Shown here piece by piece: positions 1,188 to 20,089 of a DNA stretch of 20,089 bases. The position numbers were made by a program, and so were the translations under genes. Positions within the stretch are counted from its first letter, which is position 1, and each line of letters opens with the position of its first letter. A model generated the notes under the pieces. That model did not search any database. It had not been told where the DNA came from and saw only the letters and a program-made list of their open reading frames with translations. The DNA is from a virus. The stretch lies in the IMG/VR virus record IMGVR_UViG_3300031565_000492, positions 1 to 20,089 of that record. One strand, 5' to 3'.

Positions 1188-2288
1188 ATGAATGAGTTGG
1201 CACTTTTCGCAGGCGCTGGAGGCGGCATTCTTGGAGGAAAACTCCTGGGATGGCGAACGGTGTGCGCGGTTGAAATTGATCCCTTTTGCGCCCGACGACT
1301 CTGCCAGCGGCAAAATGAAGGACACCTGGCACCGTTCCCCGTTTGGGATGATGTTTGTACCTTCGACGGAATCCCTTGGCGCGGCGTTGTTGACGTGGTT
1401 TCTGGCGGGTTTCCCTGTCAGGACATCTCCGCTGCCGGAAAAGGCGCCGGAATCACCGGAAAGAGATCGGGGCTGTGGACGGAGTTCGCGCGAATTATCG
1501 GTGAGGTACGACCGCGATACGTCCTCGTGGAAAACAGTCCGCAGTTGCTTACGGCCAGAAAGCGTTGGGCCTTACTCATCCAAGTGGTGGCTTCTCTCTT
1601 TGGGAGAGTTCGGCTGCGCGAAGTCGTTGCTTTGCGATCACAGCCAGACGCTCTTCGAGTCTTGGGAGACCTTACCGAAATGGGGTTCGATGCGCGATGG
1701 GGTGTTGTCGGAGCACACCACGCCGGTGCTCCGCACAAACGCGACCGAATCTGGATTGTGGCCGACGCCAACGACACAGGACAACATTCAGCTCAAAGGA
1801 AAAGACAAACGCGGAACGACACTCGGCGGGGCCGCTCGATTCTGGCCGACGCCGAAGGCGAGCGCGGCGGGGCCGGACTTTGCGAAGCTGGATCGCTCCT
1901 CAACGGGGATCAGCCTGCAAACGGCGGCGGCGATGTGGCCGACCCCCTGCGCGACGGATCACAAAGGGGCGGGGAAAAACGGCCAGCTCCACGACCGGCT
2001 GGATTATGCGGCGGAGCGCGGTGCGACGAAGAGCAAGACCTATCCAACCCCGAAGACGAACGGCTTTTGCGGGGGATCGGGAGCGGCGGCGAAGATTCGG
2101 CAGAACGCGGATCTTTCGACGGAGGAGAAGCGGTCGATGCTGGCGGGCAATGGTGGGCAACTGAACCCGGATTGGGTCGAGTGGCTCATGGGGTGGCCGC
2201 TCGGGTGGACCGACTCAAAGCCATTGGCAACGGCCAAGTTCCGGCAGTGGTTCGACTCGCATGGAGGGTGCTGAGTAATGTTCAATGA
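1188..2288 (+). CDS. dcm: C5-cytosine DNA methyltransferase (orphan phage Dcm type)
   Basis: This 366-residue protein carries the ordered motifs of C5-cytosine methyltransferases: motif I FAGAGGG (residues 8-14, S-adenosylmethionine binding), motif IV GGFPCQDIS with catalytic Cys77, motif VI as ENS (115-117, normally ENV), motif VIII HKRDRIWIVA (183-192) and a motif X-like GNGQVP (347-352) after WWATEPGLGRV. It should methylate the C5 of cytosine in a short DNA site, either to evade host restriction or as an epigenetic mark. No restriction endonuclease is adjacent. Oddities: residues about 123-155 look like an insertion compared with remembered relatives, and the target-recognition region (about 193-320) is a Gly/Asp/Arg-rich low-complexity stretch. 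The whole gene overlaps another long frame at 1192-2274. The C-terminal codons and TGA fall in a TTCAATGATCAATT repeat. An AGGA lies 6 bases before the ATG. Confidence 0.85.
   Translation: MNELALFAGAGGGILGGKLLGWRTVCAVEIDPFCARRLCQRQNEGHLAPFPVWDDVCTFDGIPWRGVVDVVSGGFPCQDISAAGKGAGITGKRSGLWTEFARIIGEVRPRYVLVENSPQLLTARKRWALLIQVVASLFGRVRLREVVALRSQPDALRVLGDLTEMGFDARWGVVGAHHAGAPHKRDRIWIVADANDTGQHSAQRKRQTRNDTRRGRSILADAEGERGGAGLCEAGSLLNGDQPANGGGDVADPLRDGSQRGGEKRPAPRPAGLCGGARCDEEQDLSNPEDERLLRGIGSGGEDSAERGSFDGGEAVDAGGQWWATEPGLGRVAHGVAARVDRLKAIGNGQVPAVVRLAWRVLSNVQ
1192..2274 (+). CDS. Overlapping alternative-frame gene inside the methyltransferase (WPTP / GWPLGWTD protein)
   Basis: A 360-codon frame begins four bases after the methyltransferase ATG (ATGAATG) and stays open almost to the end of that gene. 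Its product starts MSWHFSQALEAAFLEE. It contains LAGFPVRTS (the other reading of GGFPCQDIS), LPKWGSMRDGV, four W/Y-PTP units (about 1759, 1843, 1936, 2041) and ends with NPDWVEWLMGWPLGWTDSKP. I recall an abundant phage protein family with these features (WPTPTxxD blocks, then NPxWVEWLMGWPxGWTD), also seen as stand-alone genes and as fusions to methyltransferases. The WPTP blocks coincide with the VADA/LADA/VADP segments of the methyltransferase frame. Whether it is translated is unknown: high G+C alone can keep frames open, and a third forward frame is also open at 1565-2164. Its function is unknown. Confidence 0.45.
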   Translation: MSWHFSQALEAAFLEENSWDGERCARLKLIPFAPDDSASGKMKDTWHRSPFGMMFVPSTESLGAALLTWFLAGFPVRTSPLPEKAPESPERDRGCGRSSRELSVRYDRDTSSWKTVRSCLRPESVGPYSSKWWLLSLGEFGCAKSLLCDHSQTLFESWETLPKWGSMRDGVLSEHTTPVLRTNATESGLWPTPTTQDNIQLKGKDKRGTTLGGAARFWPTPKASAAGPDFAKLDRSSTGISLQTAAAMWPTPCATDHKGAGKNGQLHDRLDYAAERGATKSKTYPTPKTNGFCGGSGAAAKIRQNADLSTEEKRSMLAGNGGQLNPDWVEWLMGWPLGWTDSKPLATAKFRQWFDSHGGC

Positions 2289-8317: not shown

Positions 8318-8374
8318 ATGAAACCTGAAACCTGAAACTTGAAACCTGAAACCTGAAACCTGAAACTTGAAATT
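8318..8374 (+). repeat. Interspersed repeat, GAAACCTGAAACC family, longest copy
   Basis: About eight consecutive units of GAAACCT or GAAACTT follow the terminase stop. Read on the minus strand this gives the peptide FQVSGFRFQVSGFRF, a familiar artefact in gene calls. Confidence 0.9.
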
Positions 8375-12309: not shown

Positions 12310-13338
12310 ATGAGTTTGAGAACAGGACCTTTGACTGAATCCATTCAGTCAAATAAGAAGCTGGACTGGAGCGATGTGCTCCATACCGCCGGCCAAGTGA
12401 CCGAGCCGTTTTTGGCGTTGCTGAAGGCGGGGAAGAAACCGATCAATAAAGAACATAGCTGGCCGGTGTATGAGCTGGGCCGCAGTGGATATGCGGGAGA
12501 GCTGGACGGAGCTGTTGCGGGCACCGCCAACAACCAGAGTCGCGGATCACTGAAGAGCGTTGCGCAGTGGGTTCGCAAAGTATGGCAGGTTACGCACTTT
12601 GCGGAGCTGACAGAAACCCACGGGGTGAAGGATGAGATTAAGTTCCAGAAGGAACAGGGTCTCCTTGATCTGCGGCAGGGTTTGGAAATGCTGTGTCTGT
12701 CCGCACAGGACTGCTCTGTTCAATCGGGGGAAACGCCGAATCAGACACGCGGCGCGGCGATGTGGCTGGCGAACAGCGGGCACAACGCGGAATATCCCAT
12801 TGCCTCGGATTTCGTGGTCAGCTCCGGCTGCATCTATGACAGTACGCTGGCGGCATTCGACGCGGCGGCCTGTGAGGTGCTTCTGCGAACCGCTTCGATG
12901 GATCGTCTGGGTGCCGTGACGCTGGACGCGCAGTGCGGTCCGGCGCTGAAGGCTCGTATGGACGACTTCGGTGCGCATGACATTAAGGCGACCACGACCA
13001 ATGCGGCGCTGAAGGTGTACAACGCGCAGGCGAAGGACAAGGAGTTTACGAGTGTGATCGACTTCTTCCAGTTCAGTTCCGGGCTGGTACGCACGCACCT
13101 GAACTACAACCTGTGGCGCGACTCTGCCGGTGCAAAAACCAGCATTTTGAGCAATGCAGGCGGGCTGTTCCTTGACATGAAGATGTGGGAAATCGCCTTC
13201 ATGGACGCCATCAATCACGACGATCTGCCGTTTGACGGCGGGAATGTGAAGGGCCAGTGGCACGCGACGGCTATGCTGAAGTGTTTCATGCCGAAGGGCC
13301 AGGCGATGGTGACTCCGTCGGCTGAGGCGCTGAGTTAA
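12310..13338 (+). CDS. Major capsid protein (DUF5309 / SU10-like)
   Basis: A 342-residue protein directly after the scaffold and before other virion genes. The N-terminal half has the features I associate with the SU10-like major capsid family: a short N-arm, then AGTANNQSRGSLKSVAQWVR, then FAELTETHGVKDEIKFQKEQ and GLLDLRQGLEMLCLSAQDC, a helix like the HK97-fold spine helix. The remainder has the mixed helix-strand pattern and ends with KGQWHATAMLKCFMPKGQAM. It would form the icosahedral shell. A good AGGAG site lies before the ATG. The call rests on size, position and remembered family pattern; a structural search would be decisive. A strong hairpin follows the stop. Confidence 0.7.
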   Translation: MSLRTGPLTESIQSNKKLDWSDVLHTAGQVTEPFLALLKAGKKPINKEHSWPVYELGRSGYAGELDGAVAGTANNQSRGSLKSVAQWVRKVWQVTHFAELTETHGVKDEIKFQKEQGLLDLRQGLEMLCLSAQDCSVQSGETPNQTRGAAMWLANSGHNAEYPIASDFVVSSGCIYDSTLAAFDAAACEVLLRTASMDRLGAVTLDAQCGPALKARMDDFGAHDIKATTTNAALKVYNAQAKDKEFTSVIDFFQFSSGLVRTHLNYNLWRDSAGAKTSILSNAGGLFLDMKMWEIAFMDAINHDDLPFDGGNVKGQWHATAMLKCFMPKGQAMVTPSAEALS

Positions 13339-13368: not shown

Positions 13369-13398
13369 CAATGCTCAATGCTCAATGTTCAATGTTTA
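13369..13398 (+). repeat. Interspersed repeat, TCAATG family
   Basis: CAATGCTCAATGCTCAATG then TTCAATGTTTAATT, related to 2276-2312. It leads into the AAGGAGGAG ribosome-binding site of the next gene. Confidence 0.75.
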
Positions 13399-13412
13399 AT
13401 TAAGGAGGAGAG

Positions 13413-14834
13413 ATGAAGAAGTTTACGATGTTTGTGATGATCGCGTTGCTGGTGTTTGCCGGTATTGCGCAGGCCGCCGAATGGCGACCGGCGGACCTGA
13501 TGGAACAGGCCCGCACCGGAGCCACCCGTGTTTATGAGGTGGACTACAGCGACCTGACCAACACTACGAACAACACCGCACAGACGCTGACGGTGAGTCT
13601 TCCTGCGAAGACGGCGGTGCAGTTCGTGATGATGGAGCTGGAGACGGCCTTTGACACCGAAAACACCAACTATACCGGAAGTCTGGCGGTGATTGTGGGG
13701 GACGGGACGGATGATGATCTGTTCCTGGACTCGACGGAGCTGGCGAGTGACGGCACGGAGGTCTGGAAGAAGTTTGCTGTGGCCAACGGCGGAACGATTG
13801 CGGTTACGGCGCAGACGATGGACGTTGAAACTGATCCTGTGCTGACGCTGCAAACGGATGATGTTGAATGCGATCCGGTTCTGACGCTGCAAACGGATGA
13901 TGTTGAATGCGATCCGGTTCTGACGCTGCAAACGGATGATGTTGAATGCGATCCGGTTCTGACGCTGCAAACCGATTCCATTGAGGGTGATCCGGTGTTG
14001 ACGTTGCAGACCGATACGGTTCTTGGCGACCCGGTGCTGACGCTGCAAACCGATTCCGTTGAGGGTGATCCGGTGTTGACGCTGCAAACCGATTCCATTG
14101 AGGGTGATCCGGTGTTGACGTTGCAGACCGATACGGTTCTTGGCGACCCGGTACTGACGGTAAACACCACCACAATAGAGGCTGATCCCGTGCTAACGCT
14201 GTACACTGTTTCACTTACGGACACGAACGGGGTTACAGCGCTTTGTGTCACCAACGTAACCGTTGCGACCACAACCTACACCGTCGTCACGAATGTGTCG
14301 GTAGCGACGACCAGTTATGACTTCCTGACGAACACGACGGTAGCGACGACCAGTTATGATGTTCTGACGAATGTCACGGTTGCGACAACTGCGTATGACT
14401 TCCTGACGAACACGACGGTAGCGACGACCAGTTATGATGTTCTGACGAATGTGTCGGTAGCGACAACCGCGTATGACTTCCTGACGAACACAACGGTAGC
14501 GACAACCACGTATTCGCCGCTGACGAACGTGACGGTTGCGACGACCACGTATTCGCCGCTGACGAACGCGACGGTAGCGACAACCACGTATTCGCCGCTG
14601 ACGAACGTGACGGTTGCGACGACCACGTATTCGCCGTTGACGAACGCGACGGTAGCGACGACGACCTCGACTGTGGCGACGAACGCGACGGCTGTGTTTA
14701 CTGCCGGGGTGCTTGGCGAGACGGTCTATACAGAGGTGGATACGCTCGACATTAAGTTCACTCCGAACGCGGATGAAGCGGTTGCCGACAACACCAGTGG
14801 AAAAGTGAGGTTCTACTTTAACGTGCAGAAATAA
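13413..14834 (+). CDS. Secreted-type virion-associated protein with two 13-residue repeat arrays
   Basis: This 473-residue protein has a clear Sec signal peptide (MKKFTMFVMIALLVFAGIAQ, cleavage after about residue 21). Residues 22-140 (YEVDYSDLTNTTNNTAQTLT, then ...LAVIVGDGTDDDLFLDSTE) and the last 45 (TLDIKFTPNADEAVADNTSG, then KVRFYFNVQK) resemble the start and end of small phage head-decoration-type beta domains. Between them lie ten units of DPVLTLQTDDVEC (residues about 141-270) and, after an 8-residue spacer, eleven units of LTNVTVATTTYSP (about 279-421). Both arrays have an exact 39-bp period. The repeats are Thr/Val-rich with alternating hydrophobics, as in beta-solenoids or stacked strands. 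A strong AAGGAGGAG site precedes the ATG. Position between capsid and portal suggests a virion role; the signal peptide suggests export. These two clues conflict. An alternative is a phage-encoded host surface protein. Confidence 0.6.
   Translation: MKKFTMFVMIALLVFAGIAQAAEWRPADLMEQARTGATRVYEVDYSDLTNTTNNTAQTLTVSLPAKTAVQFVMMELETAFDTENTNYTGSLAVIVGDGTDDDLFLDSTELASDGTEVWKKFAVANGGTIAVTAQTMDVETDPVLTLQTDDVECDPVLTLQTDDVECDPVLTLQTDDVECDPVLTLQTDSIEGDPVLTLQTDTVLGDPVLTLQTDSVEGDPVLTLQTDSIEGDPVLTLQTDTVLGDPVLTVNTTTIEADPVLTLYTVSLTDTNGVTALCVTNVTVATTTYTVVTNVSVATTSYDFLTNTTVATTSYDVLTNVTVATTAYDFLTNTTVATTSYDVLTNVSVATTAYDFLTNTTVATTTYSPLTNVTVATTTYSPLTNATVATTTYSPLTNVTVATTTYSPLTNATVATTTSTVATNATAVFTAGVLGETVYTEVDTLDIKFTPNADEAVADNTSGKVRFYFNVQK
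13833..14222 (+). repeat. Tandem repeat array 1, ten units of 39 bp
   Basis: Units begin at 13833 and every 39 bases to 14184, each encoding a DPVLT... 13-mer. Units 1-4 are nearly identical (GATCCGGTTCTGACGCTGCA core). Units 4-8 show a higher-order order of TDSIEG, TDTVLG, TDSVEG, TDSIEG, TDTVLG endings, a sign of segmental duplication. Confidence 0.9.
14247..14675 (+). repeat. Tandem repeat array 2, eleven units of 39 bp
   Basis: Units begin at 14247 and every 39 bases to 14637, each encoding an (L/V)TNxTVATTxYxx 13-mer, with a degenerate partial unit (ATNATAVF) after it. Two-unit super-repeats are visible: YDF/YDV alternation first, then V/A alternation in TNVT/TNAT with YSP. Confidence 0.9.
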
Positions 14835-14864
14835 AGTGGCGAGTGTCGGGTGGCAAGTGGCGAG
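14835..14864 (+). repeat. Interspersed repeat, GTGGCGAGTGTCG family
   Basis: AGTGGCGAGTGTCGGGTGGC then AAGTGGCGAG directly follows the repeat protein's stop. It contains a GTG that could be mistaken for a start (14850). Confidence 0.6.
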
Positions 14865-14884
14865 GGCCATTTGTTACCCGGCGC

Positions 14885-14903
14885 TTTTCCAATGATTGGA
14901 AAA
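14885..14903 (+). repeat. Palindrome TTTTCCAAT-G-ATTGGAAAA
   Basis: A perfect 9-base inverted repeat around a single G just before the 14907 start. Related palindromes lie at 5843-5861 (GTTTCC/GGAAAC) and 17540-17554 (TTCCAA/TTGGAA). Confidence 0.55.
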
Positions 14904-14906
14904 CGA

Positions 14907-15218
14907 ATGTCTGGATTTTCGCAAGCGGTTCTCGACAAAGCGGCAGCGAAGCAGCGCAAGGCTGCGGAAAAGCGTTCTGTCAGCGCGGAGGTTGGAGCGG
15001 GCGGTGTCCGGACGCATCAGGTTGACTCGATCCTGTTCCATCAAGGGGTGGCGTATGGCCGCGAGCACGGGGTGCATCAGCCGTGGGATGATCCCAATTT
15101 TGTTCAGGAAGTGGAGAAGGTTCACCCGGAGATTGTGGTTGGAAGCGGCGGTGGGGGTTGCTCGCCGGTGACGGCATCTGCCCTGGAAGCTGCGAAACGC
15201 CTTGTTAGCAGGATGTAA
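14907..15218 (+). CDS. Hypothetical small head-module protein
   Basis: From the ATG at 14907 the product has 103 residues: a helical basic start (MSGFSQAVLDKAAAKQRKAA), a short strand region (GGVRTHQVDSILFHQGVAYG) and a Gly-rich stretch (VVGSGGGGCSPVTASALEA) before the C-terminal helix. Upstream in-frame starts at 14892 (ATG) and 14850 (GTG) would add 5 or 19 residues made of the palindrome and the GTGGC repeat, so I prefer 14907. The portal gene follows 14 bases after its stop, so it probably belongs to the head assembly operon. No family is recognised. Confidence 0.5.
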   Translation: MSGFSQAVLDKAAAKQRKAAEKRSVSAEVGAGGVRTHQVDSILFHQGVAYGREHGVHQPWDDPNFVQEVEKVHPEIVVGSGGGGCSPVTASALEAAKRLVSRM

Positions 15219-18225: not shown

Positions 18226-18876
18226 ATGTCAACTTTGAACCGGAAACATTTATGGATTAAGGCGGACATCCGCAAGGGCGAGTTGGTCGATGCGGACACG
18301 GGGGAAGTGCTTAGCTGCTTCCGTGGGAATGATCTGGCTGTGCATGTGGCCTTCTTTAACGGGGGCACCCTTCTTTCTGTCGCCAACCTTACGCAAGCGG
18401 TGCTGACGGTGAAGGATCCGGCCGATCTGGAAGGGGATGCGTTGATGTATAAGGCGCAGGCGAGCCTGGATGATGATCTGACGGTTGCGGAGTGGAACGC
18501 GCGGGCCAATGAGCACGCGCTGTTTGAGTTTACGGGTGCAGAAACGAATGTGGATATTGATGCGCAGGTGTTTAAGGACCTCTACGTTGGCGTGAATGTG
18601 GATACGGATGATACGCCCGGCAAGGATTTGTGCTTTGGTACGGCGGATCTGCGGATTGTGGAGGACGGCCGGGGCGACGGAGACGACGCGCCGGAGATTC
18701 CTGCGGAGTATTATACGAAGGATCAGGCGGATGCGCGGTATGCGAGGTTGTACAGCGGGTCTTCAAACATCCGCTTTGTCGATGGGATGTATCTCGAATT
18801 ATTTGACTATGGCGATTCGACATGGAAGCGGGTCGTTCTCAACAACGGGGAGTTACAAGTTTATGAAGAAGCGTAA
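18226..18876 (+). CDS. Baseplate/fibre-like virion protein
   Basis: A 216-residue protein. The first 135 residues read as a beta-rich domain (LWIKADIRKGELVDADTGEV, then LAVHVAFFNGGTLLSVANLT, then LTVKDPADLEG) of the kind found at the start of phage baseplate or fibre proteins. The segment AEYYTKDQADARYARLYSG (about 161-179) contains the YYTK..AD.RY motif common in tail fibres, where it forms the collagen-free shaft. A short beta C-terminus follows. It probably forms or attaches to a fibre or spike. No ribosome-binding site other than the GGGAATTTGAAATG repeat sequence is visible. It overlaps the next gene by 14 bases. Confidence 0.55.
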   Translation: MSTLNRKHLWIKADIRKGELVDADTGEVLSCFRGNDLAVHVAFFNGGTLLSVANLTQAVLTVKDPADLEGDALMYKAQASLDDDLTVAEWNARANEHALFEFTGAETNVDIDAQVFKDLYVGVNVDTDDTPGKDLCFGTADLRIVEDGRGDGDDAPEIPAEYYTKDQADARYARLYSGSSNIRFVDGMYLELFDYGDSTWKRVVLNNGELQVYEEA

Positions 18877-20089
18877 TACAGTTATCGGTTATTTGTTATT
18901 GGTTGTGGGGTGCGCTGCATTCGCGGATCCAACCAATACTGTCCCTGCGTCCGTCGCCGGGCGGACAGTCATGTGCGACACCAACGGGGCTGTTGTTGCC
19001 CCGACCAACTTTGTTGACGCCAACGGAATCGCCACGACAGGAGAAGTGGCGACGGTGGCGGCGAATCTGGTGACGGTTAGCAATGCGCTGGACATTGCCG
19101 AGGCGACGCTGGCGAGCACGACCGGGACAGTTGCGGATTTGACCTCTGATTTGGCGACGGTGAGCAACCGCACCGTTGCGCTGGAGGGGCGTTCCAATGT
19201 TTGGAACACGGCCTACGGCTGGGGCGACCATTCGGCGGCGGGTTACGCTGATGAGACGGCGGTCAGCGGTCAGATTTCAGCGGTCAGCAACCGGGTGACG
19301 GATGTGGAGGCCGAAACGAATGACTGGAACACGGCCTACGGCTGGGGCGACCATTCGGCGGCGGGTTACGCCGATGAGACGGCGGTCAGTGGTCAGATTT
19401 CAGCGGTCAGCAACCGGGTGGCGGTGCTGGAAACCAACACCCACACGATCGCCGAGGCCGACGCGCTGCTCGATGCAAAAGTAACTGCTCCTGTTTTGGA
19501 CTACGGTTTAACCTATACGAGTATTGATGCGACGACAACGAGCCTGACGGGGTACACCGGAACGCCGGTGAATGTGGTAGTCCCTGGAACGGACCCAGCC
19601 ACGGGGAAAACAGTTGTTAGTGCTGACGTTTCGGCGTTTGCAGGTGATACGAACCTCGTATCTATTGTTTTTTCGACTGGCTTAACGAACATCGCCGGGG
19701 GTGCATTCGATACGTGTACGAGTCTAGTCTCTGTTGTAACACCCGAAAGTTTGATAGGCATTGGAGATTACGCATTTGCCGCATGTAGCAGTCTCGCATC
19801 CATTACGCTTCCTGAAGAATTGACGAGTGTTGGAACTGCGGTATTTGGAGGATGTACGAGTTTGACGTCTATTACACTTCCTGATGGTTTAGCAACTATT
19901 CAGCCGGAAGCCTTTACCTCTGCTGGATTGACCTCAATTATATTTCCTGACGGTGTAACAAACATATATGATTCTGCCTTCGACACGTGTACGAATTTAG
20001 TCTCTCTTGTGTTTAGGGGGGATGCTCCCGCTCTAGGCGCGCAGGCTTTTCTTAATGTTACCGGCACTGTCTATTACCACGCGAGTGCG
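18863..20089 (+). CDS. Fibre-like protein with export signal and BspA-type leucine-rich repeats (partial)
   Basis: The frame is open for 409 codons from the ATG at 18863 to the right edge, so the C-terminus is missing. It begins MKKRNTVIGYLLLVVGCAAFADP, a Sec signal with either an AFA cleavage site or a VVGC lipobox. Residues about 50-115 are Ala/Thr/Val-rich heptad-like sequence. Two copies of a 41-residue module follow (WNTAYGWGDHSAAGYADETA, then VSGQISAVSNRV), a motif widespread in tail fibres. From about residue 240 the sequence becomes LRR_5 (BspA/TpLRR) units: AFDTCTSLVSV, AFAACSSLASITLPEELTSV, VFGGCTSLTSITLPDGLATI and so on. These repeats mediate adhesion in several bacteria and here may bind the host. 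The start overlaps the previous gene by 14 bases. Confidence 0.7.
   Translation, partial: MKKRNTVIGYLLLVVGCAAFADPTNTVPASVAGRTVMCDTNGAVVAPTNFVDANGIATTGEVATVAANLVTVSNALDIAEATLASTTGTVADLTSDLATVSNRTVALEGRSNVWNTAYGWGDHSAAGYADETAVSGQISAVSNRVTDVEAETNDWNTAYGWGDHSAAGYADETAVSGQISAVSNRVAVLETNTHTIAEADALLDAKVTAPVLDYGLTYTSIDATTTSLTGYTGTPVNVVVPGTDPATGKTVVSADVSAFAGDTNLVSIVFSTGLTNIAGGAFDTCTSLVSVVTPESLIGIGDYAFAACSSLASITLPEELTSVGTAVFGGCTSLTSITLPDGLATIQPEAFTSAGLTSIIFPDGVTNIYDSAFDTCTNLVSLVFRGDAPALGAQAFLNVTGTVYYHASA
19202..19420 (+). repeat. Two copies of a 96-bp unit at 123-bp spacing
   Basis: 19202-19297 and 19325-19420 differ at two synonymous positions by my reading (GCT/GCC and AGC/AGT). Each encodes the WNTAYGWGDHSAAGYA fibre module. 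The near-identity points to recent duplication or gene conversion. Confidence 0.85.

Follow-up and report, generated by a model that had tools for sequence, protein, structure and literature searches.

The closest described counterpart of the protein analyzed here is gp15 of the Helicobacter phage KHP30 (7dn2), the protein adjoining the major capsid protein (MCP) that is named 'Cement protein gp15' in the PDB. Its gene lies directly after the MCP gene and is followed by a small ORF and the portal gene. Solved cement proteins are also available from the cyanophage Pam1 (7eel) and the Ralstonia phage GP4 (gp1, 8h89), with chains of 140 and 155 residues, and the accessible portions of their descriptions mention no tandem-repeat arm. 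GP4 gp1 is described as an Ig-like protein that forms trimers at quasi-threefold axes (PMC9698820). A literature search on decoration proteins with signal peptides or tandem repeats returned few matches, and nothing directly relevant among them.

Head fibres such as phi29 gp8.5 project from the head surface. These are separate fibre proteins, whereas in the protein described below a loop is expanded by twin arrays.

We compared these systems with a virus record of 20,089 bases, analyzed over its whole length and referred to as the window; the window and the contigs of its relatives are metagenomic. The gene in question lies after the MCP gene, with a small ORF and then a portal-like gene downstream, the same order as in KHP30, the two small ORFs being compared by position alone. 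Unlike the window protein, KHP30 gp15 is 126 residues long, lacks a signal peptide and repeats, and has a short loop. The MCPs also differ, that of KHP30 belonging to Pfam Phage_capsid_3 and that of the window to SU10_MCP. On balance, we lean towards reading the gene as a capsid cement protein in which one hairpin loop has been grown by twin arrays into a head-surface spike.

The locus and its relatives

The genes around the arrays and the parts of the cement-like protein outside its loop are as follows.

12310..13338 (+): major capsid protein, SU10 type (Pfam PF17236 SU10_MCP, 1.1e-26; phrog_1328, major head protein)
13413..14834 (+): gene of the cement-like protein, 473 aa, which holds both arrays; Shine-Dalgarno-like AAGGAGGA before the ATG at 13413
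13413..13475 (+): putative Sec-type signal peptide, MKKFTMFVMIALLVFAGIAQA before AEW, from a crude signal-peptide scan; this type of N-terminus is common to the family
13476..13796 (+): base domain, N-terminal part (residues 22-128), from the conserved family alignment and the L020 model
14715..14831 (+): base domain, C-terminal strands (GETVYTEVDTLDIKFTPN...FNVQK), from the conserved family alignment
14850..15218 (+): small ORF between the cement-like and portal-like genes, with tblastn matches in L003, L004, L006-L009 and L015
15233..17503 (+): portal-like gene, conserved next-but-one neighbour of the cement-like gene

Using the protein and alignments of its relatives as queries against viral contigs, we found 13 relatives in distinct sequences from uncultured phages; near copies of the window genome may lie outside the set searched. 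A signal peptide and the base domain are common to the relatives. The base consensus reads FDTxNTNYTGSLAVxVGDGxDxDLFLTSTELASDGTEVxxKF before the loop and KVYTAADTxDFxFTPNxEEAxxANTSGxxxFYFxV after it. A Sec-type signal peptide was recognized in all 14 family members listed, and in most of them the start codon is preceded by purine-rich sequence resembling a ribosome site. The window protein matched no Pfam or PHROG family, and its relatives gave weak or sub-threshold PHROG matches, all to families of unknown function. Among annotated phages, tblastn detected no relatives of either the array protein or the base domain on its own, and a host and prophage search of bacterial genomes detected no relative of the cement-like protein or the MCP.

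The cement-like gene stands after the MCP gene in every family locus where both were found. Across the contigs that are long enough, the order is broadly terminase-like, scaffold-like, MCP, cement-like protein, small ORF and portal-like gene, the last being placed partly differently in L018, L023 and L012. The MCPs of the loci with conserved order are mostly only 28-51% identical to the window MCP. The portal-like gene, named from position and size only, had no significant match in Pfam or PHROG.

Several other features were observed in the window, where neither an Rfam family nor a tRNA was found. Two long frames on the same strand, 1188-2288 and 1192-2274 (+), overlap almost completely and are both protein-like: one encodes a C5 cytosine methyltransferase (PF00145, 8e-30; phrog_363), and the other, shifted by one frame, a WPTP/LNPxWVEWLMG protein of 360 aa (phrog_1008, 3e-29). 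In several phages (e.g. OQ471969) the same DNA carries homologues of both, which suggests conserved dual coding. Short repeats of period 7 or 14, many of them intergenic and with letters that differ by site, occur in the window (8319-8372, 2277-2310 and 13371-13400) and in the related phages L003 (3702-3736 and 4742-4787) and L004 (1330-1360, 2415-2445 and 8120-8151). At 18863-20089 (+), a tail-fibre-like protein that runs off the record has a direct repeat of 123 bp (WNTAYGWGDHSAAGYADETAVSGQISAVSNRV) together with a region of leucine-rich repeats of the BspA type (PF13306, 2.1e-32). Its N-terminus is signal-peptide-like, as are those of the fibre-region proteins of L004 (11838) and L020 (8933), and the corresponding protein of L006 (8951) has a lipoprotein-like N-terminus.

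Two arrays on either side of one turn

Within the gene, the loop between the two parts of the base domain is made up mainly of the following elements.

13833..14222 (+): array 1, 10 units of 39 bp, DPVLTLQTDDVEC type, proposed outgoing arm
14217..14243 (+): conserved turn TDTNGVTAL between the arrays, proposed spike tip; TDTNGVT is identical in the array-free loops of L002 and L020
14244..14672 (+): array 2, 11 units of 39 bp, LTNVTVATTTYSP type, proposed return arm
14673..14711 (+): twelfth unit of array 2, decayed (VATNATAVFTAGV)

The first-pass annotation had described 10 and 11 units with an exact 39-bp (13-residue) period in both arrays, and we confirmed this description; TRF gave a period of 39 with 0% indels. 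The gap between the arrays is 21 bases in our register, against 24 in the earlier one. Autocorrelation peaked only at 13 and 26 residues (0.79 and 0.78 for array 1, 0.77 and 0.84 for array 2), over a background of about 0.02-0.20 in both. The higher-order pairs seen earlier were also recovered: units 2 and 3 and units 5 and 8 of array 1 are identical in DNA, with a three-unit period, as are units 3 and 5 and units 8 and 10 of array 2, with a two-unit period. Such identical units support the earlier proposal of tandem expansion within each array, and the three-unit and two-unit patterns of recent duplication indicate that the arms grew by different events.

The arms are nearly but not exactly equal in length, at 130 residues for array 1 and 143 for array 2. 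Units 9 and 10, which adjoin the turn, diverge most in array 1; the most divergent units of array 2 lie at both of its edges, 1 and 2 beside the turn and 11 with the decayed twelfth at the far end. Between units, pN/pS is 0.36 and 0.43, the differences falling mainly at silent sites, and the V, L, T and N columns are fixed. The longest exact direct repeat is 92 bp in array 1 and 66 bp in array 2, so a short-read assembly may have miscounted the units.

As for composition, the arrays contain no Lys, Arg or His, and Cys recurs (13833-14246) at the end of units 1-3 of array 1 and once at the start of array 2. The O-glycosylation motif of Bacteroidota is D(S/T)(A/I/L/V/M/T). Array 1 units (13989-14144) carry DSI, DTV and DSV, a fit that may be chance.

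One earlier suggestion was that the two arrays are a single repeat that diverged. We compared their unit profiles in every cyclic register against column shuffles, and the best forward register gave P = 0.84 and the reversed one P = 0.36. The core noted before, LTL in one array and VTV in the other, can be seen, but shuffling the columns gives unit profiles just as similar, so the arrays are not one diverged repeat. The L-T-L and V-T-V resemblance is what Thr/Val-rich sequence yields. We therefore rejected a single diverged repeat as the source, the sources being two strands of one hairpin.

The relatives point to those strands. Between the conserved halves of the base, their loops measure 6, 6, 8, 20, 20, 28, 28, 42, 48, 51 and 69 residues, compared with 316 in the window, and the length variation between related phages that had been predicted is thus large. 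L003 and L004 have repeat-free loops of 28 and 42 residues, and their MCPs share 86% and 85% identity with the window MCP. L002, a distant relative, keeps a single hairpin, and its loop PVVTLGRVTVTDTNGVTFSAVTNVTVTAT aligns without gaps (0 of 2000 shuffles) to the window junction PVLTLYTVSLTDTNGVTALCVTNVTVATT, which starts in the last unit of array 1, crosses the turn and ends in the first unit of array 2. The same hairpin occurs in L020, where it has two return strands and aligns to the junction with gaps (0 of 2000 shuffles); independently, tblastn matched L020 to window residues 261-301 at 61% identity. The array 2 unit also matches the loops of L002, L003, L004 and L020 (P 0.0005-0.004; 0.0025 for L003 and 0.0005 for L004).

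The correspondence between the L002 hairpin and the window junction implies that the junction is old and that each array is a strand amplified on its own side. Read at the sequence level, each strand of one hairpin has been tandemly amplified separately, on either side of the conserved TDTNGVT turn. The earlier idea that the common period reflects one structure gains support in this form, with the hairpin strands of relatives as the sources. When we looked for further array-bearing phages, the DNA patterns of the units gave only single matches, in 20 stretches of viral contigs, and none of these stretches matched any window protein tested, including the array protein, with an E-value of 1e-3 or lower.

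Predicted structure of the base and the arms

We modeled the window protein and L020 with AlphaFold2. The L020 base was predicted with a pLDDT of 62-93, mostly 85-93, and its hairpin loop was left unmodelled. In VIA-align searches with this base, the top three of 989 chains were cement proteins: KHP30 gp15 (Z 9.1, rmsd 2.8 over 108 residues), Pam1 (Z 9.0) and GP4 gp1 (Z 8.5). Unrelated chains scored 7.5 and below, the best of them being nucleoplasmin-type; nucleoplasmins and CUB domains were also considered as structural neighbours and were read as generic beta-sandwich matches. With the window model, KHP30 ranked third, aligned over residues 37-473. Foldseek with the base found no significant match in the PDB (best E 0.0097, meprin), and its non-significant E-values make the evidence for a cement-type Ig-like or jelly-roll beta-sandwich moderate. 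The hhalign comparison with KHP30 gp15 covered 51 collinear columns at a non-significant E of 0.26, and no PDB sequence match was detected. Going by the models, the base is probably a cement-type domain.

The structure prediction proposed for the arrays gave a divided answer. Array 1 was drawn solenoid-like, as a regular 9-residue strand with a 4-residue turn (pLDDT about 66-81), and array 2 had a pLDDT below 50. VIA-align of the window model returned CsgA (Z 11, rmsd 8.8) and beta-helices such as SufB (Z 9.8). AlphaFold2 is documented as drawing unrealistic beta-solenoids for perfect repeats, as it did for 32 of 78 random repeat proteins (PMC11795689). Given this bias on near-perfect repeats, we do not take the solenoid-like model of array 1 as evidence. 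By charge and hydropathy, both arrays plot on the folded side of the boundary, and they have high beta propensity; simple disorder of the arrays is accordingly not supported.

Whether the arms pair is a finer point. An equal period in both arrays would be needed for a constant register of paired arms, although the equality could be chance. If the arms packed together, within a subunit or a trimer, so that each unit met an equivalent unit, the same period would be kept. Because the period of 13 is odd and every array 1 unit contains Asp-Pro, the faces of a straight two-stranded ribbon would be swapped from one unit to the next, so paired arms would need a break in each unit. When we examined the hydrophobic pairing register, one of the 12 constants tried stood out (i+j = 539), and it does not fit the DTNG turn. 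Pairing of the arms may well occur, at a likelihood we place slightly short of even.

Competing readings and the export signal

In the reading that we lean towards, a beta-sandwich base would sit on the outside of the head, as in KHP30, Pam1 and GP4, with a hypervariable loop between two of its strands. The ancestral loop was a single beta-hairpin with the TDTNGVT turn, and in-frame 39-bp tandem duplications would have turned the outgoing strand into 10 units and the returning strand into 11. The loop would now be a long, acidic, Thr-rich protrusion running out and back, and many such spikes on the head surface could serve attachment, spacing or shielding.

The loop might instead be a flexible, mostly unstructured acidic Thr/Ser-rich brush, mucin-like and perhaps glycosylated after export, with the equal period a coincidence of slippage-prone arrays. 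The low pLDDT of array 2, the likewise unmodelled L020 loop, the Ser/Thr content of array 2 (66 of 154 residues) and the lack of Lys and Arg in the arrays would all suit a brush, and a signal peptide would allow contact with periplasmic glycosylation. We nevertheless consider it unlikely, though worth keeping in view, because the charge-hydropathy result and the high beta propensity of the arrays point to folding, their units are under purifying selection with fixed columns, and the exact equality of the periods is left without explanation. A beta-solenoid for each array, as two adjacent coils or stacks on the base, would agree with the strand-turn units modeled for array 1 and with the CsgA and SufB matches. 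That array 2 was predicted differently, that such models are a known artefact of perfect repeats, and that the ancestral loop of the relatives is too short for a coil stack together make this quite improbable. The least credible reading, to our minds, is neutral slippage as the source of the arrays, or faulty assembly as the source of their copy number, in a loop under no constraint. It would account for the identical units, the long exact repeats in a metagenome-derived contig and the array-free loops of close relatives, but frame, period and conserved columns are maintained, pN/pS is low, and the unit types vary along each array, which argues against a collapsed or looped assembly.

The signal peptide bears on a different alternative, in which the product is exported to the surface or periplasm of the infected cell and its gene stands beside the capsid genes by chance, the arrays being an adhesin stalk. 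Cement proteins are expected to carry no export signal, and this family carries one in all its members; the lack of such a signal is what cement proteins usually show, not a criterion that defines them, and its presence here lowers the claim to plain membership. An export signal is odd on a protein added to heads that are assembled in the cytoplasm, its conservation throughout the family beside the capsid gene was unexpected, and no other observation weighs as heavily against plain cement membership. The fold match is moderate, and sequence similarity to the solved cement proteins was not detectable. Even so, an exported cell protein would hardly be expected to hold a fixed place between MCP and portal-like genes when the MCPs have diverged so far, to share its gene order with KHP30, or to have cement proteins as its top three fold matches, and we regard this reading as improbable.

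The signal peptides may mean that surface proteins are exported before assembly at lysis; they may also mean that the protein is not part of the virion. A bolder picture, which we hold only as a long shot, is a tailed-phage lineage with a Sec-exported head decoration and a Sec-exported tail-fibre-like protein, in which heads are dressed with spikes in the periplasm or at lysis; in this phage, the two arms of a mirrored pair of arrays would have to lengthen in step. The conserved signal peptide of a cement-like protein encoded next to the capsid gene also poses a question of its own, namely where these heads acquire their decoration.

Taken together, the relatives give a concrete origin for twin arrays of one period, namely the strands of a surface hairpin, each amplified beside a turn that was kept. 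If the arms pair, the gain of a unit on one side should require a gain on the other, which would provide a simple rule for the growth of a beta spike by slippage.
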